Shown here: positions 1,546-59,167 of the stretch, piece by piece | Position numbering within the stretch: the stretch's first letter is position 1 | How the letters are laid out: each line of letters begins with the position of its first letter | Source: Oscillospiraceae bacterium | Lineage (GTDB): Bacteria; Bacillota; Clostridia; Oscillospirales; CAG-272 | NCBI GenBank assembly: GCA_015064685.1 | Contig: SVRT01000002.1 | Span: 90,768 to 154,767, forward strand | Length of the DNA stretch: 64,000 nucleotides | Direction: 5' to 3' | Position numbers and translations under genes: made by a program | The notes under the pieces: generated by a model | Told to the model about the DNA's origin: nothing | The model's database searches: none | Seen by the model: the letters and a program-made list of their open reading frames with translations, nothing else

Positions 1546-1624
1546 TACTCTTGTCAAAAAATAAAAAAACATATATACATATACCGCGAAAATCTTACGG
1601 TATATGAAACTTTCAGGAGGTTAT

Positions 1625-2728
1625 ATGAAAGTCGAACTGCAAAATCTAACAAAGATCTTCCCCAGCCGAAACAAAAAGTCGGGTGAGGAAGTGGTGGCGG
1701 TAAACGATTTTACCTTCACCATCCCCGACGGCAAGCTCGTCGGACTTCTCGGCCCCTCAGGCTGTGGAAAGAGTACCACTCTCTATATGATCAGTGGACT
1801 CCAGAAACCCTCTTCGGGCAAGATCTTCTTTGGAGAAGAGGATGTTACCGATCTTTCTCCAGAAAACAGAGGCGTAGGTCTCGTTTTCCAGAACTACGCG
1901 CTTTATCCTCATCTTACAGTTAAGCAGAACATTTTGTTCCCGCTTCAGAACCTCAGAGGAGCTGATAAGCTCGCTAAGGAAGAGATGCAGGAAAGAGCAC
2001 TCGAGGCAGCACGTCTCGTTCAGATCGACGAGCTTATGGACAGAAAGCCCAGCGAGCTCTCCGGCGGTCAGCAGCAGAGAGTTGCAATCGCACGTGCGCT
2101 TGTAAAGATGCCTCGCGTTCTTCTTCTCGATGAGCCTCTTTCCAACCTCGATGCTCGTCTCCGTCTTCAGACTCGTGAAGAGATCAGAAGAATCCAGAAG
2201 GAGACCGGTATCACCACTGTATTCGTAACACACGACCAGGAAGAGGCAATGTCTATTTCCGATATGATCGTTGTTATGAAGCTCGGTATTCTTCAGCAGA
2301 TCGGAAAGCCCCAGGAGATCTATGACGATCCTACCAATTTGTTCGTTGCAAAGTTCTTGGGAACACCTCCTATCAACGTATTCAAGGGCACAGTTAAGGA
2401 CGGTCAGCTTTACCTTGGTGATGCTGCTGTTCTCGACGTTAACGGCGTAGAGGATCAGGACGTTACTGTTGGTATCCGTCCCGAAGGATTTATTCCGGAT
2501 GCAAACGGAAAGCTCGTTTGCAAGCTCAACAACGTTGAGGTAATGGGACGTGACGTAAGCGTTGTCGCAGAGCATCCCGCATCTCTCAATCCTGTTGTTC
2601 GCTCCATTATCAACGCAGATTATGCTATCGATAACTCCGCTGAAACTGTTAGCTATACCCTTAAGCCTCACAAGGTATTCCTCTTTAACAGTGAAACTGA
2701 AGAAAGAATTCGTTACGAGGTGAAATAA
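1625..2728 (+). CDS. Carbohydrate ABC transporter ATP-binding protein (MalK/UgpC type)
   Basis: Walker A GPSGCGKST, signature LSGGQQQR, Walker B VLLLDEP; AGGAGG just upstream of ATG 1625 (track start 1604 is less likely). Confidence 0.9.
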   Translation: MKVELQNLTKIFPSRNKKSGEEVVAVNDFTFTIPDGKLVGLLGPSGCGKSTTLYMISGLQKPSSGKIFFGEEDVTDLSPENRGVGLVFQNYALYPHLTVKQNILFPLQNLRGADKLAKEEMQERALEAARLVQIDELMDRKPSELSGGQQQRVAIARALVKMPRVLLLDEPLSNLDARLRLQTREEIRRIQKETGITTVFVTHDQEEAMSISDMIVVMKLGILQQIGKPQEIYDDPTNLFVAKFLGTPPINVFKGTVKDGQLYLGDAAVLDVNGVEDQDVTVGIRPEGFIPDANGKLVCKLNNVEVMGRDVSVVAEHPASLNPVVRSIINADYAIDNSAETVSYTLKPHKVFLFNSETEERIRYEVK

Positions 2729-4569
2729 TGGTTGACAGTAAACATCAATGGAAAGCTTGGATATATCTGTTGCCGGCTATCATACTGCTCCTCATATTCA
2801 CAGTATGGCCCATTATCAACACGGTAGTTACAGCGTTCATATATGATGTAGAGTTCAACTTAGCTGCCATTCAGGTTGAAGAGACAGAAGACGGATGCCG
2901 CTTCTACCGTGCAGACGAAAAGGGCAACAAGTACTACATCAACGCCTCGAAAAATGACAAGGGCGCTATTGAATTGCAGTATTCATCCAAGGCTGATAGC
3001 TTATTCGTTTATAACGAGGAGCTTGGCGTTTGGACGACCGCTGTCGGTGAAAAGACATATTTCCTTGGCGCAGATAAGGAATCCGACCTCAACGTCATCG
3101 AGCTTACAGAAGACGTTGCTAATAAAATTGGAAACTCAATTTATCCCGCAGGCATATTTGCAGACGTTCCCAACAATCTTATTACGAAGGATTTTGTTTC
3201 CAAAACCGGATATAAGATGGGTGTTTTCAAAGGCTTGCCTGAGGCATACGTTTACGTTAATAACGTAACAAGTGACGGCTATATCAACGTAACCAATATA
3301 CTTGATGATGCCGCAAAGATCTGGCCTGAGACCGTTAAGGTAGACGGCGTGCGCGGATATAAGCTCTACGTTGAAGATGCAGAGCTCGTTAAGCATTACC
3401 TTACCGTTGTCGCGAGCGATGACGGCAAGCTTGAGCTTCAGTATGCTGACACAACAGAGAACATCTTCATTTACAATAAGGAAAGCAAGGCATGGACTTG
3501 CACTATTGAGGATGCTGTGTATTATCTTGCTCTCGACAGTGAGACAAACCACCTCGGTCTTTTCACGCTTGCTGACGTCGCTCAGGAGGGTATGCCCTCT
3601 CCCGTTACGTTCTATATGCACAGAGGTACTGCTTCCGAGGCAAAGGAGGTCTCCTCCCTTATTCAGGATAACGCATACCGTATAGGTGCCCACCGTAACG
3701 CAAATGGTACGCAGACATACCTCTCTGATTCTGCCTCTGAAAATGCAGGATTGAGACTCACAACAAGTGTTTCAGGTGACGCTGTATCAAAGGTTGGTAT
3801 GCATAACTTCGTTAAGGTCCTGACCGATGAGGGAAGTGACTTTATGGTTTGCTTGAAGAATACACTTATTCTTACAGTCATCACCGTACCGATCTCCACA
3901 ATACTCGCGCTTCTTATCGCGGTTGCGCTTAACTCGATCAAGCCTCTTCAGAAGCTCCTTCAGACTATCTTCTTCCTTCCTTACGTAACAAACTCCATTG
4001 CTATAGGAATGGTATTCGCGGCAATGTTTAATATCGTAGGATTGAACTCGGCTAATGAGTCTGTCGGTATCATAAATAACATTCTCGGTGTCTTTGGCAT
4101 TGAGCGTGTTAACTGGATCAACCAGGGTGCTCCCGCATGGGCAAGCTTTACCGCGCTGATCATTTACATTGTTTGGAATGCGCTTCCTTTCAAGATCCTC
4201 ATTCTTCTTGGAGGACTTCAGAGTATCAACAAGCAGTATTACGATGCTGCGAAGGTTGACGGCACACCCAAGTGGCGTGTTCTTCTCAGAATTACAGTTC
4301 CGCTCCTTTCTCCTATGCTTACCTACACGGTAATTACCAGCTTTATCGGCGGATTCAAGGAATATTCCAGCGTCGTCGGTATCTTTGGTGATGGAAGAGC
4401 AGTTCCCGGCGGTGCAAATATGAATACCATCGTCGGACACATTCAGGATCATCTTACTATTACCCGTGACTACGGTCTTGCAGGTGCAGCTGCGCTGATG
4501 CTCTTTGCGATCATCTTCGTTGTTACCATGATCAACCTCTGGGTAAGTAAGAAGAATACTCATTATTAA
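2728..4569 (+). CDS. MalF-type sugar ABC permease with a ~310 aa insert between TM1 and the core
   Basis: TM1 WIYLLPAIILLLIFTVWPIINTVVTAF, then a soluble beta-rich insert, then permease core with EAA-like motif YYDAAKVDGTPKWRVLLRITVPLLSP. Confidence 0.9.
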   Translation: MVDSKHQWKAWIYLLPAIILLLIFTVWPIINTVVTAFIYDVEFNLAAIQVEETEDGCRFYRADEKGNKYYINASKNDKGAIELQYSSKADSLFVYNEELGVWTTAVGEKTYFLGADKESDLNVIELTEDVANKIGNSIYPAGIFADVPNNLITKDFVSKTGYKMGVFKGLPEAYVYVNNVTSDGYINVTNILDDAAKIWPETVKVDGVRGYKLYVEDAELVKHYLTVVASDDGKLELQYADTTENIFIYNKESKAWTCTIEDAVYYLALDSETNHLGLFTLADVAQEGMPSPVTFYMHRGTASEAKEVSSLIQDNAYRIGAHRNANGTQTYLSDSASENAGLRLTTSVSGDAVSKVGMHNFVKVLTDEGSDFMVCLKNTLILTVITVPISTILALLIAVALNSIKPLQKLLQTIFFLPYVTNSIAIGMVFAAMFNIVGLNSANESVGIINNILGVFGIERVNWINQGAPAWASFTALIIYIVWNALPFKILILLGGLQSINKQYYDAAKVDGTPKWRVLLRITVPLLSPMLTYTVITSFIGGFKEYSSVVGIFGDGRAVPGGANMNTIVGHIQDHLTITRDYGLAGAAALMLFAIIFVVTMINLWVSKKNTHY

Positions 4570-4586
4570 GAAAGGAGGAAACAGAC

Positions 4587-5633
4587 ATGAAAAACAATGC
4601 ACAAGTTAAAGAAAAGTCAAAGGGAATGCAGGCACGTGATATTCAGCAGGTCGCTACTTCTCAGAAGTGGAGAAAAGTACTGTCGAACGTTATTACATAT
4701 ACCTTCCTTGGTATAATGGCTCTTATCGTGCTTTTCCCGTTCTACTTCATGATCATTTCCTCTTTGAAGTCGTTGGATGAGTATAGACTTCCTGTTCCCA
4801 CGCTTATTCCTCAGTCCTGGAAATTCCAGAACTATACGGATATCCTTATCCCCCGCGAGTGGGCTCTCGAAAACGGACTGGGTCATCTTATTTCCGCAGA
4901 TGCCGCAAGTAACGATTTCGACCTTTTCACCCTTCTCAGAAACACAATGTTTGTAGGAATTGTTTCTACTATTCTTTCTTTGGTTATTACAGTTCTTTCC
5001 GCATTCGCTTTCGCAAGATTGAAGTTTAAAGGTAAAAACGCTCTCTTTGCAGCTCTCCTCGGAACAATGATGATTCCCGGTGAGCTCTTCACGATCACAA
5101 ACTACGCAACCGTTATGACTAAGGACGGTTGGTTCCCGACGTTCTTTAATAACCTCGGAAATATGTTTGGTCTGTTTGGTGAAGATTTCCGTATTCCTAT
5201 GATGGATGCAAGCTATGCAGCCCTCATAGTTCCGTTCCTTGTAAGTATCTTCTACATATATCTGTTAAGACAGAATTTCCTGCAGATACCCAATGAGCTT
5301 TACCTCGCCGCTAAGGTCGACGGAACAAGTGATTTCAAGTATCTTTGCAAGGTTATGATTCCCTTGGCACTCCCCACTATCATTTCTATTACTATCTTGA
5401 AGATGATGGGTGCTTGGAACTCGTATATGTGGCCTCGACTCGTTGCAAACGATGAGGCTCACCGTCTTATCACAAACGGATTGCGTAATGCCTTCAACGA
5501 CGTATCGGGTAACACCGACTATCCCCGCCAGATGGCAGCAGTCGCGCTTGTTTCGCTCCCGCTCTTCCTTGTATTTATCTTCTTGAGAAAGTACATTATG
5601 AAGGGTGTAAGCCGTAGCGGTATCAAGGGTTAA
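4587..5633 (+). CDS. MalG-type sugar ABC permease
   Basis: EAA-like motif LYLAAKVDGTSDFKYLCKVMIPLALP, six-TM pattern, AAAGGAGG upstream. Confidence 0.92.
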   Translation: MKNNAQVKEKSKGMQARDIQQVATSQKWRKVLSNVITYTFLGIMALIVLFPFYFMIISSLKSLDEYRLPVPTLIPQSWKFQNYTDILIPREWALENGLGHLISADAASNDFDLFTLLRNTMFVGIVSTILSLVITVLSAFAFARLKFKGKNALFAALLGTMMIPGELFTITNYATVMTKDGWFPTFFNNLGNMFGLFGEDFRIPMMDASYAALIVPFLVSIFYIYLLRQNFLQIPNELYLAAKVDGTSDFKYLCKVMIPLALPTIISITILKMMGAWNSYMWPRLVANDEAHRLITNGLRNAFNDVSGNTDYPRQMAAVALVSLPLFLVFIFLRKYIMKGVSRSGIKG

Positions 5634-5702
5634 TCGCTTTTACATTTTTGTAAGGCTTAACACAAATAAAAAAAACAAACAAAAAAATGGAGGAAAAACA
5701 CC

Positions 5703-7256
5703 ATGAAAAAGATTCTTGCATTCATTTTGTTGTTCGCTCTTACTGTAGGTTGTTTCGTTTTTGTCGGATGTGACGTTAACGTTAACGTTAATGACGACGA
5801 AAAGGGTACAAGCGCTGAAACAGACGCTCCCGCTGAAACAAACAAGGGTAACACAGGCGATGACAACATCAAGGAAACCACCGGCGGTTCCGATGTAACT
5901 CCCGAGGAAACCGATCCTGATAACGGCGACGATGACCTTGAGAGTGATGAGGAAGGTTACGACGGAAGCGCAGTAACCGTTGTATTCTATCACACAATGG
6001 GTAGCAACCTGTCTGACGTTCTCAATATCTATATTGCAGAATTCAACAAGCTTTACCCCAACATTACCATCGAGCACCAGCAGGTGGGTGGTTATGACGA
6101 CGTTCGTGAGCAGATCAGTACTGAGATCACAGTTGGTAACCAGCCCAACATCGCGTACTGCTATCCCGACCACGTTGCTATGTACAACGTAACTAAGGCA
6201 GTTGTTCCGCTTGATTCTCTCATTGATAGCCTTGCTATCGTTGAACGTGCTGACGGAACTGAGGAGATGATGGGTCTTTCTCAGAAGCAGATCGATGATT
6301 TCATCGAGGGTTACTATAACGAAGGTAAGCAGTTTGGCGACGGTAAGATGTACACACTTCCTCTCTCCAAGTCAACTGAGGTTCTTTACTACAATAAGAC
6401 ATTCTTTGATCAGCACAATCTCACTCTCCCCACAACATGGGATGAGATGAAAGCTCTTTGCGCTAAGATCAAGGAGATCGATCCTAACTGCATTCCTCTC
6501 GGATATGACAGTGAGTCCAACTGGTTCATCACAATGTGCGAGCAGTACGGTACACCTTACACAAGTGCAACCGGCGAGCACTTCCTCTTCAATACTCCTG
6601 AAAACGTTGCATTCGTAAAGGAATTCAAGAGCTGGTACGATAAGGGCTACTTCACAACTCAGGAGCTCTTCGGTGCATACACATCCGGACTCTTTGTTTC
6701 TGAGACAAGCCCCAAGAGCTACATGTCCATCGGTTCTTCCGCAGGTGCAACTCACCAGCGTCCTACAAAGGGTAACGATGGTAAGTACCCCTTCGAGGTA
6801 GGTATCGCAACTATTCCTCAGGTTAATCCCGAAGATCCTAAGGTTATTTCTCAGGGACCCTCTCTCTGCATCTTTGATAAGGAAAACAAGCAGGAAGTTT
6901 ACGCTTCTTGGCTCTTCATGAAGTTCCTTACAACTAACATTGACTTCCAGGCAGAGTTCTCAATGGTTTCCGGTTACGTTCCTGTTCTTAAGTCCGTTGC
7001 AGAGCACGAGTACTACAAGAGCGCATTCCTTGATAAGGCAGACGGCGGCGACTATATCGCAGCTCTCTCTGCAAAGGTTTGCTTGTCTCAGGTAGATGCA
7101 TACTACACATCTCCCGCATTCAACGGTTCTTCCGTTGCTCGTGACCAGGTTGGTCTTCTTATGCAGAACTGCTTCGTATTCACAGGCGATAACATCGACG
7201 AGCAGATCCAGAAGGCATTCGAGGATGCTGTTGCTAAGTGCAAGTACCTCTCTTAA
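5703..7256 (+). CDS. Extracellular solute-binding lipoprotein (family 1 type)
   Basis: Lipobox VGC, acidic linker, AVTVVFYHTMGSNLSDVLNIYIAEFNKLYPNITIE; downstream of two permeases. Confidence 0.9.
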   Translation: MKKILAFILLFALTVGCFVFVGCDVNVNVNDDEKGTSAETDAPAETNKGNTGDDNIKETTGGSDVTPEETDPDNGDDDLESDEEGYDGSAVTVVFYHTMGSNLSDVLNIYIAEFNKLYPNITIEHQQVGGYDDVREQISTEITVGNQPNIAYCYPDHVAMYNVTKAVVPLDSLIDSLAIVERADGTEEMMGLSQKQIDDFIEGYYNEGKQFGDGKMYTLPLSKSTEVLYYNKTFFDQHNLTLPTTWDEMKALCAKIKEIDPNCIPLGYDSESNWFITMCEQYGTPYTSATGEHFLFNTPENVAFVKEFKSWYDKGYFTTQELFGAYTSGLFVSETSPKSYMSIGSSAGATHQRPTKGNDGKYPFEVGIATIPQVNPEDPKVISQGPSLCIFDKENKQEVYASWLFMKFLTTNIDFQAEFSMVSGYVPVLKSVAEHEYYKSAFLDKADGGDYIAALSAKVCLSQVDAYYTSPAFNGSSVARDQVGLLMQNCFVFTGDNIDEQIQKAFEDAVAKCKYLS

Positions 7257-7281: not shown

Positions 7282-8757
7282 ATGAATAGTTTTAAGAAAA
7301 TTCTAGCTGTTGTAATGCTGGCATGCATCCTTCTCGGATGCATGGCAGCATGCGACACAAAAAAAGAAAATGATGGCGATAAGGAATCCCAGAAGATAGA
7401 ATCTACTGAGACCGAAAGCACACAGGGCACAGAAGTGCCCGAAACAGAAGGAGCTTCTGATCCCGAGAGCGAGTCAGCAAATGAGACCGATCCCGAGACA
7501 GATCCCGAAACAGAAGAGCCTGAATTCGTCGACTATGCCGACGAGCTCAAGCTTGATATGAATTCAGATACATTTAAGCAGACTGTTACAGTCAAGTCTT
7601 TTATTGACGGTGACACAACACACTTCAACGTTCCCACTTCCGTTATTGACACGGGTGTTCTCAAGGCAAGATATCTCGGTATCAACACCCCTGAGTCCAC
7701 CGGTAAGATAGAAGAGTGGGGAAAAGCCGCTTCTAACTTCACCAAGGAGAAGCTTTCATCCGCAACGTCGATCATAGTTGAATCCGACAATGCAAATCTG
7801 AATGCTGACTCCACCGGTGACAGATATCTCCTTTGGGTATGGTACAAGCCCGCAGGCTCTGATGAATACCGTAACCTTAATATCGAGATATTGCAGAACG
7901 GTCTTGCTATTGCATCGAATTCCGCTAACAACCGTTACGGAACAACATGTATGGCAGCTATTAACCAGGCAAAAGCATTCAAGATGGCTGTTTATTCCGG
8001 GCAGAAGGATCCCGATTTCTATTACGGCGAAGCTCAGGTCATTACTCTTAAGGAGTTGCGTTGCAATATCGAAGAGTACAACGGTACCAAGGTTGCGTTC
8101 ACAGGTATCATTACTGTGAACTATAACAACGGTGTTTACGTTGAGAGCTTTGACGAGGAGACAGGCATTTGGTATGGTATCTACGTATATTACGGATTCG
8201 GTATGAGTGGATCCGCGCTTGAGATCCTTACCGAAGGTAATGAGTCAAGAATCGTTGGAACCGTATCCTACTACGAAACCGGTGGAACGTATCAGGTTTC
8301 AGGACTTACGTACCGTGTAATGAATCCCGATGATCCGTCCAACATCAAGAAGCTTAGCGATGGACATTCTCCCGTATATCTCCCGACCACTCCCGACCGT
8401 TTTGTTAACGGAAAGGTTGACATTACTTTCACTGATGACGAGGAAACACAGACAACCGAAACATATAATTATGCTGAGGTCGCTATCAACTCCTCGATCA
8501 GCATGGAAGGTCTCAAGGTCAAGAGCGTATACACAACTACAACTGAGTCTAGCTACGGTGCAATGACTCTTACGTGTGAGGCGAACGGCGTTACAGTTGA
8601 CGTCCGCACAGACGTTTTCCGTGATGAGAACGGTGAATTGATAACTGCTGATTACTACCAGGGTAAAACCATTAACGTAAAGGGAATTATCGATTATTTC
8701 TCCGGAAATCATCAGATCAAGGTATTCTTACCTGAACATATTACAATAGTGGAATAA
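7282..8757 (+). CDS. SNase-like (thermonuclease) lipoprotein with C-terminal OB-like domains
   Basis: Lipobox LGCMAAC; VKSFIDGDTTHFNVP, KARYLGINTPES, STGDRYLLWVWYK, NLNIEILQNGLAIA match the staphylococcal nuclease fold. Confidence 0.82.
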   Translation: MNSFKKILAVVMLACILLGCMAACDTKKENDGDKESQKIESTETESTQGTEVPETEGASDPESESANETDPETDPETEEPEFVDYADELKLDMNSDTFKQTVTVKSFIDGDTTHFNVPTSVIDTGVLKARYLGINTPESTGKIEEWGKAASNFTKEKLSSATSIIVESDNANLNADSTGDRYLLWVWYKPAGSDEYRNLNIEILQNGLAIASNSANNRYGTTCMAAINQAKAFKMAVYSGQKDPDFYYGEAQVITLKELRCNIEEYNGTKVAFTGIITVNYNNGVYVESFDEETGIWYGIYVYYGFGMSGSALEILTEGNESRIVGTVSYYETGGTYQVSGLTYRVMNPDDPSNIKKLSDGHSPVYLPTTPDRFVNGKVDITFTDDEETQTTETYNYAEVAINSSISMEGLKVKSVYTTTTESSYGAMTLTCEANGVTVDVRTDVFRDENGELITADYYQGKTINVKGIIDYFSGNHQIKVFLPEHITIVE

Positions 8758-8791
8758 AAATTTTATAAAAAAATAAAATAAAGGAGTCACT

Positions 8792-11700
8792 ATGAAAAGA
8801 CTAATCGCAATTTGTCTTGCTATGGTACTTTGCCTTGCGGTATTCGTATCATGTGCAGACATCCAGGAAGGTGGCACCGAGACAGGTGACACAAACGCAG
8901 GTAACGAGACAGTTGTTGAGACTGATCCTGTTACAGAGCCCGCTGAAACAGATCCCGAGACAGATCCTGAGACAGATCCTGAAACTGATCCTGAGACTGA
9001 TCCCGAGTCTGCTCCCGAGTCTGAGACACCTGAGGTTGAGTATGATGCAGAGGCTGCTGTAGCGTTCATTAAGAACCTCTACAGAGATGACCTTCTTCTC
9101 AACAACGTTACAGCAAGCGACTTCACAGTAGTTGCAACTGTTCCTGTTGGAACTGTTACATACACTGTTGAGTGGTCTGTTGATAACGAGCTTGTTAAGG
9201 CTGTTAAGGGTGAGAACGAGTGGACTATCGACGTTGACGAAAAGGCAGCAGAGGCGCATACATATAAGCTCACCGCTACTGTTATTGCCGGCGACGGATC
9301 CACAGCTTCCATTTCCTTTGACCTCAATGTTCCCAAGTACAATGTTGCTTCCTTTGAAGAGTACATGGCTGCAGAGTCCGGTGCAACAATCACTATTGAG
9401 GGTATCGTTGTAGCAATGAATGGTAAGAGTGTTGGCAACTCCAGAAACCACCTCTTCCTCGCAGACGCATCCGGCAAGGGTGGTTACTACTGCTACCAGC
9501 TCGATTCTGACCCCGTAGCTGAGGGTGTTAAGATCGGTATGACCGTTTCCGTAACTGCTGTTGTATCTCCTTACTCAGGCATGCAGGAGACAAAGGGCGG
9601 TACATTCACTATCGTTGACGAGACTATCAAGACTGTTGAGCCTCTCGACATTACTGAAAAATTCGCTTCCGGCGCAGATCTTAAGAACTATGTTGGTCTC
9701 GCTGTAACCGTCAAGGGTGTTACCATTGCCGGTCAGGAGCTTGGTGGAACAAGCGAATACCTTAAGTTTGAACTTAATGGCAAAACCTCCTATATCAGAA
9801 CATACATCACAGATTTCCCCACAACTCTTTCTATCGTTAAGGATGAAAACGGTTCTGTAAGTAGCGCTGATAAGACCGCTATCGATGCAGCTCATGCAGA
9901 GAAGTTCGGCTGGACAGCAAATGCAACCGGTATCCTTGTACTCTACAGCGGCAATCCTTACCTCATTCCTATGGGTGTTGATTGCTTCGAGTATCTTGAG
10001 CTCGTAGAAAAGACTCCCGAGGAAAAGATTGCAGCAGAGCTTGATGCTCTTACTTTCAGCACATCCTTTACTGCTGATACAGTTGTTGATCTCCCTGCAG
10101 TTGGTACATACTACAACGAAGTAACCCTCGCATGGGCATCCGATAAGGACGCAATTGCTATCGCAGATGGCAAGGCAACTGTTACTGTTCCTGATGAGAC
10201 TGTTATAGTTAAGATTACTGTTACTGCTACATGTGGCGATGCAACAGCTACAAAGGAGATCGAGGTTAAGGTTTCCAAGGCAGTTACTACAATCGCTGAC
10301 GCTATTGCTATAGGTTCAGCTCAGGCTCACAATACTTACACTACCGGCAAGTATATTGTTGCAGGTATCATTAAGGATGTTTACGGCGAAGCATATGGCA
10401 ATATGCACATCGTTGACGAGCTTGGCAACGAGTTCACCGTATACGGAACCTACATTGACGGAACCAAGTATGGTGATTACACCGGTGCAAAGCCTGTTGC
10501 AGGCGACTACATCGTAGTTATCGGTGCTCTCGGTCAGTATAACGGTACTGCACAGATGAAGAACGCTGATCTTGTATCATTCATTACTCCTACATCCATT
10601 AAGGATGCTGCTGATAAGGGTGCTGCTATGACACAGGACACCTTTACCAACGAAAAGTATGTTGTAACTGGTACCGTTACCGAGATTAAGAGTGACAAGT
10701 ACGGAAATATGACTATTGTTGATGCAGAGGGTAATTCCATTTACCTCTACGGTCTCTACAGTGCAGATGGTACAACAAGATACGACGGAATGACTGTTAA
10801 GCCTGCAGTTGGTGATACAGTAACAGTTCTTGGTGTTGTTGGTAATTACAACGGCGCGCAGATGAAGAACTCTTGGCTCGTAGCTCATACAGTAGCTTCT
10901 TCCGATAACCCCGATCAGGGTGGTTCTGGTACACCTGATGATGGTGGCGATGAACCCACAACACCCGATACCCCTGCTACAGGCGTAGTTGATCCTGTTG
11001 TTGGTACTGCATACAAGTTCGGTATGGTACAGGGCAATCTTGATAACGCTGTTTACTACCTTGCAGGTGGCATGAACGGTTACTATATGGAAACAACCAC
11101 AGATGCTTCTGCTGCTCTCGATGTATATCTTGAGACAACAGAGGGTGGATACTATATGTACTGCATGGTTAACGGTGTAAAGACTTACATCAACTTTGTT
11201 GTAAGTGGAACACATGTAAACGGTGCTTACGAGACCACTGCTTCTACTGTATACACTTATAACGAGACAAGCAAGACGGTTATCGCAATCGTTAATGATA
11301 CTGAATACTGGCTTGGAACAAGAAATGACAAGACCTATACAACAATGGGTCCCTGCGCAGTTTCCTATAACGGATTCTACGGTCAGTTCTACGTATCCGG
11401 CGGTGCAACTACAGATCCTACTCCCGATCCCGATCCCACTCCCGATCCTGAGCCTACACCTAGCACAGGTCTCGTAGTTGGAACCGGTTACACCATTTCC
11501 GCAGCTAACGCAAACGGTCTTCTTTACTTCGATGGAACTGTCTCCAGCGGTCGTTTCAACGGTTCTAATGATGCTTCTAAGGCTGCTGTGGTTTACGTTG
11601 AGAATGCAACAAATGCAGGCGAATATCTTCTTTACTTCTTTGTAAATGGTACAAAGAACTATGTTGTTATGGAGGATAAGTCTGCAGGTGGTTCTTTTGC

Positions 11701-11854
11701 TACTGATGCAGCAAATGCAACCGTGTTTGAGTGGAACGCAGAGAAGAATACTCTCGCTGTTGCTGAAGATTCTAACAACCGTGCATTTGGTGTTGGCGCA
11801 ACAAGCACATACTCAAACTTCAGTGCTTACGATCTTACCGGCGCATATAACTGA
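8792..11854 (+). CDS. Large lipoprotein: TDPE-repeat linker, OB-fold-like repeats, Ig-like segment, two C-terminal beta-rich modules
   Basis: Lipobox VSCAD; (ETDPE)n linker; repeated KYIVAGIIKDV...GNMHIVD / KYVVTGTVTEI...GNMTIVD; AAGGAG upstream. Confidence 0.8.
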   Translation: MKRLIAICLAMVLCLAVFVSCADIQEGGTETGDTNAGNETVVETDPVTEPAETDPETDPETDPETDPETDPESAPESETPEVEYDAEAAVAFIKNLYRDDLLLNNVTASDFTVVATVPVGTVTYTVEWSVDNELVKAVKGENEWTIDVDEKAAEAHTYKLTATVIAGDGSTASISFDLNVPKYNVASFEEYMAAESGATITIEGIVVAMNGKSVGNSRNHLFLADASGKGGYYCYQLDSDPVAEGVKIGMTVSVTAVVSPYSGMQETKGGTFTIVDETIKTVEPLDITEKFASGADLKNYVGLAVTVKGVTIAGQELGGTSEYLKFELNGKTSYIRTYITDFPTTLSIVKDENGSVSSADKTAIDAAHAEKFGWTANATGILVLYSGNPYLIPMGVDCFEYLELVEKTPEEKIAAELDALTFSTSFTADTVVDLPAVGTYYNEVTLAWASDKDAIAIADGKATVTVPDETVIVKITVTATCGDATATKEIEVKVSKAVTTIADAIAIGSAQAHNTYTTGKYIVAGIIKDVYGEAYGNMHIVDELGNEFTVYGTYIDGTKYGDYTGAKPVAGDYIVVIGALGQYNGTAQMKNADLVSFITPTSIKDAADKGAAMTQDTFTNEKYVVTGTVTEIKSDKYGNMTIVDAEGNSIYLYGLYSADGTTRYDGMTVKPAVGDTVTVLGVVGNYNGAQMKNSWLVAHTVASSDNPDQGGSGTPDDGGDEPTTPDTPATGVVDPVVGTAYKFGMVQGNLDNAVYYLAGGMNGYYMETTTDASAALDVYLETTEGGYYMYCMVNGVKTYINFVVSGTHVNGAYETTASTVYTYNETSKTVIAIVNDTEYWLGTRNDKTYTTMGPCAVSYNGFYGQFYVSGGATTDPTPDPDPTPDPEPTPSTGLVVGTGYTISAANANGLLYFDGTVSSGRFNGSNDASKAAVVYVENATNAGEYLLYFFVNGTKNYVVMEDKSAGGSFATDAANATVFEWNAEKNTLAVAEDSNNRAFGVGATSTYSNFSAYDLTGAYN
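8938..9015 (+). repeat. 12-bp period repeat encoding the TDPE linker
   Basis: gagacagatcctgagacagatcctgaaactgatcctgagactgatcccgag. Confidence 0.85.
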
Positions 11855-11919
11855 GGTCAGTTCACTGCAGTTGAAGCAGAATAAGCTTTTTATTAGCTTT
11901 TATTCTAGAATATAATTTG

Positions 11920-11947
11920 AACCGCACCTTCGGGTGCGGTTCTTTTT
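11920..11947 (+). terminator. Rho-independent terminator
   Basis: ACCGCACC-TTCG-GGTGCGGT followed by TCTTTTT. Confidence 0.85.
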
Positions 11948-11959
11948 ACTTATATACTC

Positions 11960-11988
11960 TTGACTTTATGTACAAAATATGGTAGAAT
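11960..11988 (+). promoter_or_regulatory. Sigma-70-like promoter
   Basis: TTGACT-17 nt-TAGAAT upstream of the 12020 ORF. Confidence 0.6.
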
Positions 11989-12019
11989 AGGATGATAAGT
12001 AAAACGAGGAAAAAGGTGT

Positions 12020-13264
12020 ATGAATAATTTCTTTTTGAAAAAGAGTTTAGCATTAATTCTTGTATTAATGCTGTTATTTACAGTTGCTTGTGATTCTAAA
12101 GTTGATAATAATAATCAAAGTACAACAGGGGCTGAATCCAACGTTGAAACGTCATCGGATATAGAGACGAATACAGAAGAGGAATCACTCTCTGAATCCG
12201 ACAGATCAAGTGAAGAGATAACCGAAGAGCAAACAGAACCGGAAACAGAGTCACAGTCATCAACAGAGACAGAGGAAGAGACTACCGAAAATATTAGCGA
12301 GACTCACACAGAATCAGATACTGAAACAGTATCTGAAACAGAGAGCGAAAAAGAGACCGAAACACTTGATGCGGTAGATGAAGCAAGCAGAGACGAATTC
12401 TATGGGGATAGCGATCCCGCAGACAGCTATGAAGAGGCAATCGATCGCGCAACAAGAGGTGAAATAGCAGGAGCAGATACAGTACCGGATCAGGCGCCGA
12501 CAATTTCAGAATACAGACCCTCAGTTGACGGTATATATGTAAAAAACGTACATCCTTATTATATTGATGAGAACACTTACGTAGTTGTAAATGCATACGG
12601 ACAAGAGGTTTTAAGAGTTTACCGCGGCGGTGGATATATCACCCTCGAGGAAGTCGCGGCGTACATTTACGCTTTTGGTGAGCCTCCCGCAAATCACTCG
12701 TCAAGCAAAAGAACTAAGCCCAAGGATAGCATCTGGGGAGAGTATCTTCGCGTCAATAATACTAAATTCAGCGGAAATACAACCAGGTATCCTTATGAGC
12801 CCGTTCTTCCTCGAATAAATGGGTGCGGGGGAGATCTCCAATACTGGGAGATGGACATCGGCACTACCGGTAACGATTGCGATCCTTCATACTCGCCAAG
12901 AATATACAATAACGGTACTACGATCGTACGCGGTGCATCGCGTATAGTTTATACCTGGAATGATCTGAATAACAACGGAATAACAGATTCTACTGATATC
13001 GTTTACGTATTCTATACTTACAATCACTACAACGATTTCCAAGAGTATCTGAATTATTTCGGCGGTTGGGGAGATATGTTCGGTAATATCACCGGCGGCG
13101 GAGAAATATCCAGCAAAACGAACTATAATCCCACTCCCTACGTTCCAGTCTATAACGGATCACTTGTTGATAATAACACAACCGAGACAACAAATGATGC
13201 TTACATCATTTCCGTTATTCTTCCCACGGATCTTTATTATATGAACAAGTACAGAATTGCATAA
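12020..13264 (+). CDS. Lipoprotein with a C-terminal barnase-family (microbial ribonuclease) domain
   Basis: Lipobox VACD, E/T/S linker, then YITLEEVAAYIYAFGEPPAN ... FSGNTTRYPYEPVLP ... YWEMDI ... RGASRIVYT ... NHYNDFQEYL, following barnase motif order with E, R-x3-R and H conserved. Confidence 0.72.
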   Translation: MNNFFLKKSLALILVLMLLFTVACDSKVDNNNQSTTGAESNVETSSDIETNTEEESLSESDRSSEEITEEQTEPETESQSSTETEEETTENISETHTESDTETVSETESEKETETLDAVDEASRDEFYGDSDPADSYEEAIDRATRGEIAGADTVPDQAPTISEYRPSVDGIYVKNVHPYYIDENTYVVVNAYGQEVLRVYRGGGYITLEEVAAYIYAFGEPPANHSSSKRTKPKDSIWGEYLRVNNTKFSGNTTRYPYEPVLPRINGCGGDLQYWEMDIGTTGNDCDPSYSPRIYNNGTTIVRGASRIVYTWNDLNNNGITDSTDIVYVFYTYNHYNDFQEYLNYFGGWGDMFGNITGGGEISSKTNYNPTPYVPVYNGSLVDNNTTETTNDAYIISVILPTDLYYMNKYRIA

Positions 13265-13300
13265 CAAAAAATGCTTGCCTTAATCAAGGCAAGCATTTTT
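13265..13300. terminator. Bidirectional terminator between convergent genes
   Basis: aaaaatgcttgcctt-aatc-aaggcaagcattttt. Confidence 0.88.
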
Positions 13301-14008
13301 AATTGCGTTATATACAGAGAACTCTGTTCTGTCGTTTTGCATTGGGGTAATTGATATTAAATTATGATTTACTGCCACGGCATCAAGTTCAATATCATTC
13401 TGATCCTTGTCGGGGGTATAATAGCCCTTCTGTGCGTAAAGATTGTTTCCAACGGGTATAAATTCATCAGCGAAATAAGCGCGTCCCTGACGTGTAATCT
13501 TAACTCCATCAGCTACAGGGGGAATATTGATATTGTATATAGGATTGATATTTAAAAGATTGTTGTTTACAATGTAAGCATATGCTTTATCGAAATGCTC
13601 GGCGGCTGCTTCAAGAGTATCGGGAAAGGTGGAGAGAGCCAAAGCCTTATGATCGAGCGCGGCAGCTTCGAATATTGCACCGACTGTTCCAGAATAAACA
13701 ATATCTTTTCCGAGATTTGCCCCCTTATTTATGCCCGAAAGCACGAGATCATATTTTCTCTTCATACCGAGAATACCGTATCTTACACAGTCGGCAGGCG
13801 TCGAGTCAACAGAATATGCCTCAACACCGTAAAGATCTGATCTGTCAAGCACTTCAATTGGACGGACAAGCTCGATTCCGTGACCTTTTCCGCTTTGCTC
13901 GACCTTAGGTGCCACTATTGTGACTTCACCAAGCTTTTTCGCCCATTCAACAAGCAGTTTTATGCCAAGGGCTTCAATTCCGTCATCGTTTGTAATAAGA
14001 ATTCTCAT
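13280..14008 (-). CDS. surE: 5'/3'-nucleotidase SurE
   Basis: MRILITNDDGIEALGIKLL, SGINKGANLGKDIVYSGTVGAIFEAA. Confidence 0.95.
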   Translation of the reverse strand: MRILITNDDGIEALGIKLLVEWAKKLGEVTIVAPKVEQSGKGHGIELVRPIEVLDRSDLYGVEAYSVDSTPADCVRYGILGMKRKYDLVLSGINKGANLGKDIVYSGTVGAIFEAAALDHKALALSTFPDTLEAAAEHFDKAYAYIVNNNLLNINPIYNINIPPVADGVKITRQGRAYFADEFIPVGNNLYAQKGYYTPDKDQNDIELDAVAVNHNLISITPMQNDRTEFSVYNAIKNACLD

Positions 14009-14985
14009 AACCAGCCCTCGTGTGTGGATTTGTATTCCTTAAGAAGAGCATCGGCCTCGGAAAGAAGCTTTTTTATCTCCTTTTTGTTGAGAAGGGTAGC
14101 ACCGCATGCAGAAGCATGTCCTCCGCCGCGATATCTCTCGGCAATTTCGTTTACGTGAAGGAAACGGGAGCGAAGTCGCACTCTGATTGTGCCGTCGGGA
14201 GAGTCAATAAATGCGACCCAGATAAGAGAGCCTTTAATTGAATCAAGATAAGAGACCGCGGCACTTGCATTTTCCATTGTCAGATTGAATTTTTCCTTGA
14301 TAGCATCTGTAATGTGAATATATGCGACTCCGTTTTCGGTTATCTTCATCTTTTGGTAAACAAAGGACTCAAATTTGAAAAGCTCGAAATCCTTCATATA
14401 AAGATTTGCAAAAATCCATTCGGTATCAATGTTCTGTCGAAGCATAAGGCCCGCGAGTCTCATAGTCTCATCCGACACGTCGCGGAAGCGGAAACGACCC
14501 GAGTCTGTAACCATTCCGGTGTAAATATACGTTGCAGCCTCTTTATCTATAACGAGTTTATCGCTTAAAGCCTCATAAAATGCCGCAACCATTTCGCAGG
14601 TTGATGATCTGTCCTCTTCGACCCACTCAAGAGTACCGTAAGATTCAAGCGGAATATGGTGATCAAGCTTTACCAGCTCTTTACAAAGAGCATACTTTTG
14701 ATTTGATATACGCTTTGCGTTACCGGTATCAAGAACCATACCGAGAGAGGATGCATACATCGAATCATTGATCGGCTTATCCTCCTCTCCGAGAAAAGCA
14801 AGATATTCGGAAAAATCATCATTCTGAAGATAGATATCTTTTTCAGGAAATGAAAGCTGAAGGATTCTCTGAAGACCCTTGGTAGAGCCTACCGCATCTC
14901 CGTCGGGTCTGAAATGACGGAAAATAATGATCCTGTCATATTCCTTTATTTTATTGTATATTTCTATAATCTTTTCTTTGCTCAT
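14005..14985 (-). CDS. nrnA: DHH/DHHA1 phosphoesterase (NrnA-like)
   Basis: RHFRPDGDAVGS, VLDTGN, LDHH, GGGHASACGATL. Confidence 0.87.
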   Translation of the reverse strand: MSKEKIIEIYNKIKEYDRIIIFRHFRPDGDAVGSTKGLQRILQLSFPEKDIYLQNDDFSEYLAFLGEEDKPINDSMYASSLGMVLDTGNAKRISNQKYALCKELVKLDHHIPLESYGTLEWVEEDRSSTCEMVAAFYEALSDKLVIDKEAATYIYTGMVTDSGRFRFRDVSDETMRLAGLMLRQNIDTEWIFANLYMKDFELFKFESFVYQKMKITENGVAYIHITDAIKEKFNLTMENASAAVSYLDSIKGSLIWVAFIDSPDGTIRVRLRSRFLHVNEIAERYRGGGHASACGATLLNKKEIKKLLSEADALLKEYKSTHEGWL

Positions 14986-14987
14986 TA

Positions 14988-15923
14988 TTACACCTCAGTG
15001 ATTGCGTTAAGATCGGCAAGCATGCTCATCGCCTCGTCGCGGTTTTTGAGTGTTGCTCCACTTGCCTTTGCATGACCGCCACCACCGTATTTAACGGCGA
15101 TCGGGTTAATATTATACTTGCTTGAACGGATCTCACAGAGAACACCTGCGTCGGTTTCGGTAAAGTTTACCCAAACATCAACTCCGCGAATATCAGACAT
15201 CGTGCTGACCATTCCGCGAGAGATAGAGAAGGTATCAACGTTGTACGAGGCAAGCTCGTCCTTAGTTGTATAAATATAAGCGACGTTTTTCTCTGTGAAA
15301 TTAATTTTAAGAACAAACTGAGCTCTCAAACGAATGTAGCTAAAATCATCCGCATAAAGATTTGCGTAAATATCATTCGTATCAAATTTCTGCTCCATCA
15401 AAAATGACGCGAGTCTAAAGGTATTGGAGTTTGTCGAGTCGTAACGGAAGCGACCGGAATCGGTTACCATACCTGTGTAGAGCGATTTTGCCGCAAGGGA
15501 ATTGAGCTTGAGTGAACACTCTATTGCGAATTCTGCGATAAGTCCGCAGCAGCTTTCGTAAGTTGTGTTACGAATCTCAATATCAGTAAATTTTTCGCAG
15601 AAAATGTGATGGTCTACACATGCAGTAAGCTCCGCGGTTGCGTAACGGGCATCGCTGATAAGGGCAGTTGCAGACGTGTCTAGAACAATTGCAAGAGCAC
15701 CGTTGTAGTATTCATCGGGAATATCGTCGGTTTTGGAGTCCTCCATAAAGCCGAAGCGAACCGAAGAATCTCCAACAGCATAAACCTCTTTGCCGGGGAA
15801 ATTTTCCTTGATAATGTTCTTGAGTCCTATCTGACTTCCAAGGGCATCGCCGTCAGGGTTTGAGTGACGGTGGATTATTATTCTATCATATTTCTTTATT
15901 GCCTCTATAAGCTGTTCAAACAT
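14988..15923 (-). CDS. Second DHH/DHHA1 phosphoesterase (NrnA-like paralogue)
   Basis: RHSNPDGDALGSQ, VLDTSA, VDHH, GGGHAKASGATL; start moved to ATG 15923 after GGAG (track start 15935 is TTG). Confidence 0.87.
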   Translation of the reverse strand: MFEQLIEAIKKYDRIIIHRHSNPDGDALGSQIGLKNIIKENFPGKEVYAVGDSSVRFGFMEDSKTDDIPDEYYNGALAIVLDTSATALISDARYATAELTACVDHHIFCEKFTDIEIRNTTYESCCGLIAEFAIECSLKLNSLAAKSLYTGMVTDSGRFRYDSTNSNTFRLASFLMEQKFDTNDIYANLYADDFSYIRLRAQFVLKINFTEKNVAYIYTTKDELASYNVDTFSISRGMVSTMSDIRGVDVWVNFTETDAGVLCEIRSSKYNINPIAVKYGGGGHAKASGATLKNRDEAMSMLADLNAITEV

Positions 15924-15938
15924 ATCTATCTCCAAAAA

Positions 15939-17280: not shown

Positions 17281-19029
17281 TTACTTCCATCCACCGTTTT
17301 TGATAAATTCAGCAAGCAGGTCTCTTGCATACACACCATCGTCGAATCTTACGATCTCTGTCAGGCGATTGGAAGAATATGTAGAGGTATAAGTGTCAGT
17401 TATCAAATAATAAGTGGCATTGGGATCTATGCTGTTTTTGATGCTTTCGCCGTATTCACCGCAGTAAATGTAGTAATTTGAGTTCGATGTCTCTAAAAAC
17501 TTCTTATTAAGATCAGAGCCCTTTATCGAACAGAGAACAAGCTGATTATCGAAGGGAAGAAGCGACTGAAGATCGGAATATTTCACCTGTCCTGCATCAA
17601 GATCGTACGGACTTCTGGTGGATATGAATCCGCCTCCGAGAACGATATCATACTGATCTCCGAAAAGCTCAATACCTCTTTGGTAGTAAAGCTGAGCTAC
17701 AGTAGCCTTGATTTGAGACGAGTATTTTGCAGACGAGATCGTTCCGAGTACTTCATCCCCCTTTGCTATCTGGTCTTTATATTTCTCAAGAAGCTGATCG
17801 CGCAACGGATCTCCATCAAAGCTTGAATAACGTGAGGACTCAACGAATTCTGCTACACCGACAAAGGAGGTGAAGGTTACGGAGTTTATAGCGATCTCGA
17901 CGTGTGAAATACCCTTGTTTTCGCCTCCGTTCTGAAGATGGTAAACACCGTATTCATCTATAAGCACATATCTTTGATGTGTATGTCCCTCAAAAACGAG
18001 ATCAACGTATCCGTTTGAAAGCTCTGTATCGTAGTAGCTTGCAAGCTGCGCGCTACTCACTCTCGTGGGTGAATATTTGTTTTGTCCAAATCCGTCGTGA
18101 ATTGAATATACAATAAAATCAACACCTATAGAACGTAATCTTTCTGATTCGGCTTTAACAAGAGCAGTAAGATCATTTCCGACCTTGAAATAAACGGCGC
18201 TTGATTTATCGGCTGAAATTGAGGAATAGCAATCGCCAATTGCGCCAATTATTCCGACCTGGATTCCGTTACACTCAACGATTACAGATGCCTCGCAGTA
18301 ATCTACTCTTTGGTTTGTCTCACGGTCGTAGATATTAATAGCGAGAAGAGGGAATTCTGCAAGCTCGCAGTTGTCCTCAATGATCTCCTCACCCCAATCG
18401 TACTCGTGGTTGCCAAGAGTCATTGAAACAAAATCAAGCTCGTTCATCCACTCTGTGATAATAAATCCGTTTGTCAGATTTGATTCGGAGCTACCTTGCC
18501 ACATATCTCCGCTTGAAAGGAATACGGAGTTATCATCTGTATTCAGTGTGCTCTTTAAATAGGCAGTAAGCTCGTCAACACCGGAGTTTGAATCAGTGTC
18601 CTTGAATTTACCGTGAAGGTCGTTCAATGCATAGAAATCAATACTGATAATTAGGGAAACGTTACATACATCACATTCACCGTCGTCGTTTTGATCTGTG
18701 TGTTTATCACAGATGTCACTTGTATCGGTTTCTTCTTCAGTTGTTGTACCGTCATTTTTATCAGTATTGTCTTCTGAATCAAGTTCAGTTGTTTCTTTAG
18801 TTATAGAATCAGAATCTGAGCTTTCGATTTCAGGTGCGGTTTCTTCTACCGCAGGGCTATCGGAAGTTTTTTCCGATTCAATGTCCTGTTCGGTAGATAT
18901 GTAATCTTGTGTTTCTTGTTGCGTTGCATCGGTTTCTTTTTCTGCGTTTGTTAAATCACATCCGCAAAAGAGAGATATCAAGAGTAAAAGTGAAAGAGCG
19001 AATGATAATAATTTTACATTATATTTCAC
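17281..19029 (-). CDS. 5'-nucleotidase/UshA-like metallophosphoesterase lipoprotein
   Basis: Lipobox FCGCD, acidic linker, ALNDLHGKF, SSGDMWQGS, LGNHEYDWG, C-terminal 5'-nucleotidase-type domain. Confidence 0.88.
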   Translation of the reverse strand: MKYNVKLLSFALSLLLLISLFCGCDLTNAEKETDATQQETQDYISTEQDIESEKTSDSPAVEETAPEIESSDSDSITKETTELDSEDNTDKNDGTTTEEETDTSDICDKHTDQNDDGECDVCNVSLIISIDFYALNDLHGKFKDTDSNSGVDELTAYLKSTLNTDDNSVFLSSGDMWQGSSESNLTNGFIITEWMNELDFVSMTLGNHEYDWGEEIIEDNCELAEFPLLAINIYDRETNQRVDYCEASVIVECNGIQVGIIGAIGDCYSSISADKSSAVYFKVGNDLTALVKAESERLRSIGVDFIVYSIHDGFGQNKYSPTRVSSAQLASYYDTELSNGYVDLVFEGHTHQRYVLIDEYGVYHLQNGGENKGISHVEIAINSVTFTSFVGVAEFVESSRYSSFDGDPLRDQLLEKYKDQIAKGDEVLGTISSAKYSSQIKATVAQLYYQRGIELFGDQYDIVLGGGFISTRSPYDLDAGQVKYSDLQSLLPFDNQLVLCSIKGSDLNKKFLETSNSNYYIYCGEYGESIKNSIDPNATYYLITDTYTSTYSSNRLTEIVRFDDGVYARDLLAEFIKNGGWK

Positions 19030-19045
19030 AAATTCATTCCTCCTA

Positions 19046-19810
19046 TCAAAGATAGTTTATCAATAAAGCAATCCCCTCAATAATTACAAGATGTACGGGA
19101 TAAAAGAAGTAGAAGGCATACTTTAGCTTTTTGTTGCCTACCTTGCCATTATAAAAAAGAACAAAGAGTACAGATATGAGACAGAAAAACTGTATGCCCG
19201 TCATTCTGCCCCAAATGCACAGCGGGATCAAGCCCAAGGTGAAGGAGATTATTCTGAGCCAATGAGTGTCCAAATGTTTTAGCGTGTCACTAACCGGTAT
19301 ATTCTTAAAATCGAAGAGAGATGTGAATACAGGAACGAGCATTCCGCAGAAGCCGTACTCAAAATGAACGATCTCGAAAACAAAATACCCGCAAGCAAGT
19401 GCTATGAGGAAGATCAGAACAGCCCCAACTTTATTAATAAGTGATTCAGAGCAGAACAGCTGCTTTTTACTCCATTCAAGCAGGTAAATGTAAAGCACAG
19501 AAACGGAAAAAGTCATAAAAATATTTCCGTATATCTGACCGCCATAGAAGAAGTAGAAAATACCAAACAAAGCACCGATAGTAAAAAGCGTCAAAAAACG
19601 CTTCACTTTGTTTTTTGTATATCTGCATCCCTCTGCAATAAAGAACGCAAAAAGCGGAAAGGCAAGTCTACCAATTATTCTGAATGGCAAGTAGTCATTA
19701 AGAAGCTCAAGTCCTATGTGGTCTATTGCCATTAGAACACAAGCAATGATCTTTAAGGTAGAGCCGCTCAAAAATCCAATTTTATTATAGCTGTTTTCAA
19801 TATGCATCAT
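19046..19810 (-). CDS. TraX family membrane protein
   Basis: LSGSTLKIIACVLMAIDHIGL, RIIGRLAFPLFAFFIAEGCRYT. Confidence 0.85.
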   Translation of the reverse strand: MMHIENSYNKIGFLSGSTLKIIACVLMAIDHIGLELLNDYLPFRIIGRLAFPLFAFFIAEGCRYTKNKVKRFLTLFTIGALFGIFYFFYGGQIYGNIFMTFSVSVLYIYLLEWSKKQLFCSESLINKVGAVLIFLIALACGYFVFEIVHFEYGFCGMLVPVFTSLFDFKNIPVSDTLKHLDTHWLRIISFTLGLIPLCIWGRMTGIQFFCLISVLFVLFYNGKVGNKKLKYAFYFFYPVHLVIIEGIALLINYL

Positions 19811-20376
19811 TTATGCGTTGCTTTTTTCCAGCAGCTGTGGCACATTGCAACGTATGAGTCATTACCGCCTATAAGTATCTGACCGCCGCTTGTAACAACG
19901 TTGCCCTCTCCGTCAATTCTTGCGTTTACGATCGCCTTACTTCCGCAAGAACAAATCGTTTTGATCTCGTTTATTGAATCGGCAATTTCAAAAAGACGTC
20001 TGCTACCCTCAAAAAGGTTAGTCAAGAAGTCTGTTCTCAGTCCAAAGCAGAGAACGGGAATGTCAAGCTCATCAACGATTCTTCTAAGCTGATCTATTTG
20101 TTTAGCGGTGAAGAACTGACATTCGTCAGCAATAACTGCGTGATAACCATCAAGCTTATTAAATTCAGCGTAAAGATCTGTTTCGGGCTTAGCAATATAA
20201 GCGTGTTCGGAAAGACCTATTCTTGAACGAACTATATCAGCACCGTCTCTGTCGTCAAGCGAGGGCTTGATAAGCCATACTCGCATGCCTCTTTCTTCAT
20301 AGTTAAACTTAGTTATAAGTGCATTCGCTGTCTTGGATGAGCCCATTGCTCCGTATTTGAAATACAACTTTGCCAT
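19807..20376 (-). CDS. tdk: Thymidine kinase
   Basis: MAKLYFKYGAMGSSKT, DECQFF, CSCGSKAIVNARID; ATG 20376 has a good GAGGAG upstream. Confidence 0.93.
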   Translation of the reverse strand: MAKLYFKYGAMGSSKTANALITKFNYEERGMRVWLIKPSLDDRDGADIVRSRIGLSEHAYIAKPETDLYAEFNKLDGYHAVIADECQFFTAKQIDQLRRIVDELDIPVLCFGLRTDFLTNLFEGSRRLFEIADSINEIKTICSCGSKAIVNARIDGEGNVVTSGGQILIGGNDSYVAMCHSCWKKATHK

Positions 20377-20377
20377 C

Positions 20378-41989: not shown

Positions 41990-42018
41990 TTGCACACTGT
42001 ATGCGTAAATGATAAAAT
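41990..42018 (+). promoter_or_regulatory. Sigma-70-like promoter
   Basis: TTGCAC-17 nt-TAAAAT upstream of the TasA-type gene. Confidence 0.6.
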
Positions 42019-42062
42019 GTTTCTATCCAGCATCCAAAATACATTTTGTGGAAGGATTTGTT

Positions 42063-56534: not shown

Positions 56535-56635
56535 GAAGGTTTTGGGGGCGCAAGCCCCCAGCCTTCGGGAAAAAGGCATTGTTAGCCGAAATACAAGGAC
56601 AACAAGCGTCTTGTGTAGCGGCTAACAATGCCTTT
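56535..56635 (+). repeat. Two consecutive strong hairpins between SBP and permease genes
   Basis: GAAGG-TTT-TGGGGGC-GCAA-GCCCCCA-G-CCTTC (56535-56566), then perfect 17-bp stem AAAGGCATTGTTAGCCG/CGGCTAACAATGCCTTT (56572-56588 with 56619-56635). Confidence 0.85.
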
Positions 56636-56696
56636 CATTATAAACCCTTATATAATCATAAAAAGGAGCTATATAAACTCGGTTTATATTTTTACT

Positions 56697-59155: not shown

Positions 59156-59167
59156 GAGGTAAATATT

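Follow-up and report, generated by a model that had tools for sequence, protein, structure and literature searches.

Within the window, the 64,000-nucleotide stretch of DNA analyzed here, we have found a gene block that probably functions as a nucleic-acid foraging cassette, for whose importer we infer nucleosides, nucleotides or short oligonucleotides to be the substrate. The block, all of which lies on the forward strand of a genome assembled to 2.4 Mb in 36 contigs, opens with an RDD-family membrane protein (772-1545; PF06271 E 1e-14) and continues with an ABC importer (1604-7256). The three consecutive lipoprotein genes that the first-pass annotation had placed behind this importer are all present, and they code for an SNase lipoprotein (7282-8757), an OB lipoprotein (8792-11854) and a barnase-like RNase lipoprotein (12020-13264). 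Inspection by eye reveals a signal peptide and a lipobox cysteine in each of these three proteins.

The importer is composed of a MalK/UgpC-type ATPase (1604-2728; PF00005 E 1.5e-37, with OB_MalK), a MalF/UgpA-type permease of 613 amino acids (2728-4569; BPD_transp_1 E 5e-18), a MalG/UgpE-type permease (4587-5633; BPD_transp_1 E 1.4e-16) and a UgpB-like binding protein (SBP), likewise a lipoprotein (5703-7256; SBP_bac_8 E 2.8e-38). A MalK-type ATPase, two BPD_transp_1 permeases and one SBP_bac_8 protein together place the system in the CUT1 (MalFGK/Ugp) type, although its subunits score below the equivalog or subfamily cut-offs for MalF, UgpC and UgpB (UgpC subfamily model E 6e-103 for the ATPase and MalF model NF008232 E 1.6e-25 for the permease, each under its cut-off). 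When a profile of the SBP is compared with the PDB, it matches the sugar-binding protein 7c0x (E 5e-23) and UgpB (E 5e-17); the solved structures closest to it carry annotations for binding sugar or glycerol-3-phosphate, and none for nucleosides. A match to the mycoplasma P68 model at E 4e-8, which is under the model's cut-off, weakly supports homology between the Clostridia and mycoplasma SBPs.

A phylum-wide survey with strict thresholds returned, beyond the cassette itself, only a paralogous transporter clade. One paralogous MalF-MalG-SBP importer resides on contig C36 of the same genome (L083:7006-12079), where an OB-fold lipoprotein (PF01336 E 3e-9) comes after it and a nuclease does not. 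Genome G231 has a comparable set that includes an ATPase (L084). A wider family of importers with OB-lipoprotein partners and another substrate may exist. Because the L083 paralogue has an OB lipoprotein without a nuclease, the presence of an OB partner does not in itself indicate nucleic acid as the substrate. The window also carries a second CUT1-type importer (56628-60292), with two permeases and an ATPase that is about 40% identical to that of the cassette.

The thermonuclease motifs noted earlier in the first lipoprotein proved genuine. This 491-residue protein scores 38.9 bits against PF00565 (cut-off 21; E 1.3e-9) and matches the NucI model at E 7e-11, and a search of solved structures with its profile picks out thermonucleases at E 1.4e-11. 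All 17 homologues keep D111, R130, E138 and R181, the counterparts of the catalytic residues D21, R35, E43 and R87. The position of the calcium ligand D40 is occupied by N135 in the window protein and by D in some homologues. Downstream of the SNase domain are two C-terminal OB-like domains, and this half of the protein is colinear with the first two OB domains of the OB lipoprotein (hhalign 88.7% and 42%).

The OB lipoprotein itself (1020 amino acids) exhibits a series of domains comprising an Ig-like domain, OB1-OB2, aBig_2, a duplicated OB3-OB4 and two C-terminal beta-rich domains. The repeated OB-like segments reported in the first-pass annotation represent a true internal duplication within residues of about 499-712 (43% identity over 115 amino acids, E 6e-26), and PF01336 matches eight of 14 homologues (best E 4.6e-12), the window protein itself being sub-threshold. 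A predicted model has a pLDDT of about 88 over the first 440 or so modelled residues, at the N-terminus. Its top PDB matches are HIN-200, telomere end-binding protein alpha and RPA (E 2e-6 to 1e-3), all of which are DNA-binding tandem OB proteins, and some beta-rich surface proteins are also among the matches; with a multidomain query such as this one, overall TM-scores come out low. The OB lipoprotein probably binds nucleic acid, of which a fold alone is no proof. Elsewhere in the window (42009-46592), GHTYSGEVTKQPTCTEQG-type repeats occur in a surface protein of 1527 amino acids. One portion of that protein is 50% identical over 129 amino acids to the end of a truncated OB-lipoprotein reading frame in genome G007 (L071:2-919).

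Two further features tie the OB lipoprotein to the importer. In the window genome and three close relatives, the MalF permease carries an insert of approximately 310 residues (2842-3777) in its first extracytoplasmic loop, at a position that we take to be that of the P2 loop of Escherichia coli MalF; most MalF orthologues beyond these nearest four genomes are about 312 amino acids long. The insert consists of copies of the C-terminal domain of the OB lipoprotein. A profile built exclusively from the C-terminal domains of OB lipoproteins detects the insert with E 3.5e-24 (Z=10000) and picks up neither a shuffled decoy nor any unrelated protein among 369, and hhalign aligns the insert with the OB-lipoprotein C-terminus at a probability of 98%. 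By these profile comparisons, the MalF loop domain is homologous to the C-terminus of the OB lipoprotein. In addition, a second SBP encoded by genome G005 is joined with an OB lipoprotein into a single protein of 1477 amino acids. This fusion (L069:7154-11587, contig C12) begins with many cysteine-containing GHTPGAEATCTTAQTCTVC-type repeats, which are followed by a full SBP and then by the OB lipoprotein with its C-terminal domain.

The gene neighborhood is strongly conserved among the 297 genomes that we surveyed from one Clostridia family. The SNase is found in 74 genomes, the SBP in 74 and both in 73, and the two genes are contiguous on the same strand in 72 of these 73 pairs (gap 2-81 bp, median 33 bp; 29-30 genera), the remaining pair being split over two contigs. 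Thus, as in mycoplasmas, an SNase lipoprotein gene is contiguous with SBP and ABC genes across species. The order RDD-MalK-MalF-MalG-SBP-SNase-OB is unchanged across the 73 loci wherever contigs allow. An RDD gene is present at 57 of them, with the remainder mostly limited by contig ends, and an OB gene went undetected at only three of the 48 loci with enough downstream sequence. These tallies should be read with the understanding that MAG contig ends blur adjacency counts and that close relatives share ancestry, such that genome counts are not independent events. Two further families in the order have the cassette as well; in one of them only SNase and OB genes were found, on a short contig. 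The relatives that are named originate from the guts of sheep and goats. The same importer-SNase-OB block is present in a rabbit-gut MAG labelled as Bacilli (L056, CANQJU010000002.1, GC 0.30), for which horizontal transfer or a mislabelled bin are both possible explanations. Nuclease domain matches, retention of catalytic residues and conservation of the neighborhood are the points on which sequence analysis could have refuted the first-pass annotation, and on each of them the evidence came out in its favor.

Downstream of the OB lipoprotein gene, a predicted intrinsic terminator (11919-11942, forward strand) closes the importer/SNase/OB unit with a 10-pair hairpin followed by TTTTT (-19.7 kcal/mol, z -6.55). 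It is followed by a sigma-A-like promoter for the RNase gene (11960-11988, forward strand; TTGACT-17-TAGAAT with a TG extension), which is a consensus match only. On account of these two elements ahead of the RNase gene, we rejected a single operon extending from 1.6 to 13.3 kb. The distribution of the RNase is also looser than that of the core genes. It was found in 38 genomes of the family survey, a count that leaves out three more distant matches, and 33 of these genomes also carry the SNase. Among these 33, the RNase gene is located directly downstream of the cassette in 12 and on another contig, in some cases at a contig end, in 18; it is absent from 41 of the 74 SNase genomes. Judging from these sequence signals and from this distribution, the RNase gene is its own transcription unit and an optional accessory, not a core member. 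The earlier interpretation of the lipoproteins is thus supported, with the amendment that the RNase gene does not share one continuous operon with the importer, SNase and OB genes, being set apart by a terminator and a promoter and often unlinked.

The assignment of the third lipoprotein (414 amino acids) as a barnase-type protein is borne out by its relatives. The window protein scores 18.3 bits against PF00545, for which the family cut-off is 24 (E 0.0035), and the model matches all 11 aligned members at E<=0.1 (best 1.7e-5). Residues E277, R304, R308 and H336, equivalent to E73, R83, R87 and H102 of barnase, are invariant in these 11 members, including one that is only 33% identical, and the R83-x3-R87 spacing of barnase is preserved. 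We use the label 'barnase-like' because the catalytic residues are kept, although the window protein falls under the PF00545 cut-off. Against the PDB, a profile of the family yields matches that are mostly barnases, at E 0.16 only, and a phmmer search with the sequence alone gave only marginal, unrelated matches; an AlphaFold model made from the alignment is poor (pLDDT 53), and a PDB fold search with it was uninformative. A divergent barnase-like lipoprotein from genome G031 with 33% identity that keeps the catalytic E, R, R and H (L075:7086-8303) is encoded near other Thr-rich lipoproteins and distant from the importer. We also considered barstar as a conserved partner and rejected it, since it is present in the window genome and G007 and was not found in several RNase-bearing relatives. 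The missing barstar fits export of the RNase as a lipoprotein, which does not decide the role of the protein.

Convergent with the RNase gene, on the reverse strand, is a run of genes for nucleotide metabolism. It includes a cytosolic SurE 5'/3'-nucleotidase (13280-14008; TIGR00087, above cut-off), two copies of an NrnA-like DHH phosphoesterase of the oligoribonuclease/PAP phosphatase type (14005-14985 and 14988-15935; NF053633 E 3e-70 and E 1e-68, both under cut-off), a dGTPase-like HD protein and then a 5'-nucleotidase-family lipoprotein that could be an extracellular nucleotidase (17281-19029; Metallophos E 4e-7, 5_nucleotid_C E 2e-6). A single gene (19046-19810) separates the latter from a thymidine kinase (19807-20391, reverse strand; NF003300, above cut-off). 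Among 79 relatives, SurE is found in 16, namely all 15 cassette genomes and G001, whose contig begins inside an OB-lipoprotein tail that is followed by an RNase, evidently a cassette remnant. NrnA occurs in those 16 genomes and additionally in G039. The co-occurrence of SurE and NrnA with the cassette has a Fisher p of about 1e-14 to 1e-15 when kinship is ignored. This association is more than adjacency, because the SurE-NrnA-NrnA block was not found beside the cassette in at least four genomes (G008, G013, G031 and G042), of which G013 and G031 are made doubtful by contig ends. Genes for deoC, deoB-cdd, pdp, deoD or tdk are located within approximately 9-11 kb of 14 of the 73 loci, in at least seven arrangements, and a thymidine kinase gene is present at 11. 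The 5'-nucleotidase lipoprotein was found at two of the 73 loci and so was discarded as a fixed member, and we found no secreted nucleotidase among the conserved cassette members at these loci.

Taken together, these observations extend a link between nucleases and importer that originally rested on gene order: family-wide adjacency, the SBP-OB fusion, the domain shared by MalF and the OB lipoprotein, the co-occurrence of SurE and NrnA, and the nearby deo genes now all bear on it. In the mechanism that we consider probable, the membrane-anchored SNase would cut extracellular DNA and RNA at the cell surface, and the barnase-like RNase, where present, would cut extracellular RNA. With their tandem OB domains, the SNase and OB lipoproteins would keep the polymer, or pieces of it, close to the importer, and the UgpB-like SBP would pass nucleosides, nucleotides or short oligonucleotides to the CUT1-type MalFGK importer. 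Once inside, oligonucleotides and nucleotides would be finished by NrnA-type phosphoesterases and SurE, and nucleosides would be salvaged or catabolized by thymidine kinase or by DeoC/DeoB/Pdp/DeoD. Weighing against this mechanism are the sugar and glycerol-3-phosphate annotations of the SBP's solved relatives, the lack of a secreted nucleotidase among the conserved members, the nuclease-free paralogue with its OB lipoprotein, and N135 at the calcium-ligand position of the SNase.

What crosses the membrane could be narrower than this. We tentatively entertain, as a possibility that we would not yet favor, that the importer takes nucleotides or short oligonucleotides and not free nucleosides, which would make it an equivalent, for nucleic acid, of maltodextrin import. 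After cutting by endonucleases at the surface, fragments would be presented by the OB lipoproteins together with the loop domain of MalF, and the CUT1 importer would carry 3'-nucleotides or 2-4-mers to be finished by cytosolic NrnA and SurE. Phosphorylated products are favored because NrnA and SurE are cytosolic and co-occur with the cassette and because there is no fixed secreted nucleotidase, whereas nucleosides are favored by a precedent from Mycoplasma bovis (PMC12838404).

Other explanations dispense with feeding on nucleic acid or with part of the module. The nucleases might defend against extracellular DNA of host or microbial origin, such as that of traps, biofilm or mucus or incoming DNA, with the importer carrying an unrelated sugar as a mere neighbor. 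Surface SNases of pathogens do dismantle neutrophil traps (PMC9740415), and the nearest solved SBP relatives bind sugar and glycerol-3-phosphate. However, the contiguity of 72 of the 73 SBP-SNase pairs across 29-30 genera, the fusion of an SBP to an OB lipoprotein in one relative, the domain common to MalF and the OB lipoprotein and the co-occurrence of SurE and NrnA all speak against this explanation, which we judge unlikely. The UgpB/UgpC-like subunits, together with the fact that B. subtilis YhcR reclaims phosphate from DNA with NucA and NucB (PMC11458576), raise the prospect that the cassette scavenges phosphate or phosphodiesters, wherein nuclease products and glycerophosphodiesters enter through the Ugp-like importer mainly as a source of phosphorus. 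Yet the genes that are repeatedly linked are those of nucleoside and nucleotide enzymes, and a general reading of the cluster brought no phosphate-uptake gene to notice; this proposal is very unlikely in our estimation. Also rather unlikely, though less so, is the idea that the third lipoprotein, while having the barnase fold, serves some other purpose, such as that of a toxin acting on competitors, and lies outside the feeding module. Its separate transcription unit, its placement on a different contig in 18 of the 33 genomes (at contig ends in some) and its absence from 41 of 74 SNase genomes are consistent with such a role; against it stand the presence of the cassette in 33 of the 38 RNase genomes, in 12 of which the RNase gene is directly downstream, and the failure to find barstar in several RNase-bearing genomes, the last of which fits export and does not settle the role.

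Several known systems resemble the foraging cassette in part. YhcR of B. subtilis is a single sortase-anchored, multidomain protein with SNase, OB and 5'-nucleotidase domains, and we know of no dedicated importer in its operon. In the window, by contrast, the functions are divided among lipoproteins that accompany a CUT1 importer. The likeness is to YhcR as a cell-surface, calcium-dependent nuclease that reclaims DNA (PMC11458576).

As an idea, the pairing of importer and SNase has precedents in mycoplasmas and Izemoplasmatales. Mycoplasma operons that join an SNase lipoprotein to ABC genes include MAG_5030 to MAG_5070 of M. agalactiae, mhp379 of M. hyopneumoniae and MHO_0730 of M. hominis, and the SNase has been proposed to supply the importer with nucleic-acid precursors (PMC3585158, PMC9740415). 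The M. agalactiae SNase gene shares a transcript with the ABC genes and that of a putative SBP (PMC3585158). The Clostridia locus likewise has a surface SNase lipoprotein beside a sugar-type ABC importer and, like M. agalactiae, an SBP lipoprotein. It differs in that the nuclease gene comes after the SBP gene, and in the addition of the RDD gene, the OB lipoprotein, the MalF loop domain, the optional barnase-like RNase and the linked SurE and NrnA. In M. bovis, a UgpE-type permease of the operon MBOVPG45_0747-0751 is required for nucleoside uptake and the use of extracellular DNA, as judged from metabolomics of a mutant (PMC12838404), and this operon as described, unlike the window locus, has no nuclease.

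Izemoplasmatales possess larger loci for DNA and RNA degradation, and nucleic acid is degraded and used by these organisms (PMC8397711, PMC10470597, PMC8289736). Secreted nucleases, ABC transporters and nucleotide enzymes are clustered there as in the window (Xianfuyuplasma, PMC8397711; Hujiaoplasma, PMC10470597; MAGs, PMC8289736), and the Hujiaoplasma locus includes an extracellular ribonuclease and NrnA (PMC10470597). Growth promotion by DNA has been shown for Xianfuyuplasma (PMC8397711). Compared by described gene content, the Izemoplasmatales sets differ from the window locus, for example in including an EddB-type nuclease and a phosphate transporter. In the part of the literature that we covered, we found no prior description of the OB-lipoprotein partner, the SBP-OB fusion, the domain shared by MalF and the OB lipoprotein or the co-occurrence with SurE and NrnA.

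Until now, it was chiefly for mycoplasmas, with their reduced genomes, that ABC import of nucleic-acid products coupled to nucleases had been proposed. Roughly one in four of the 297 genomes sampled from one Clostridia family carries a fixed gene block that follows this logic, and the OB-fold lipoproteins, the SBP-OB fusion and the domain common to permease loop and lipoprotein suggest how such a system is built. The question of its substrate can be tested directly with one purified binding protein. For the uncultured bacteria of the herbivore gut that carry it, the cassette suggests a diet of nucleic acid.
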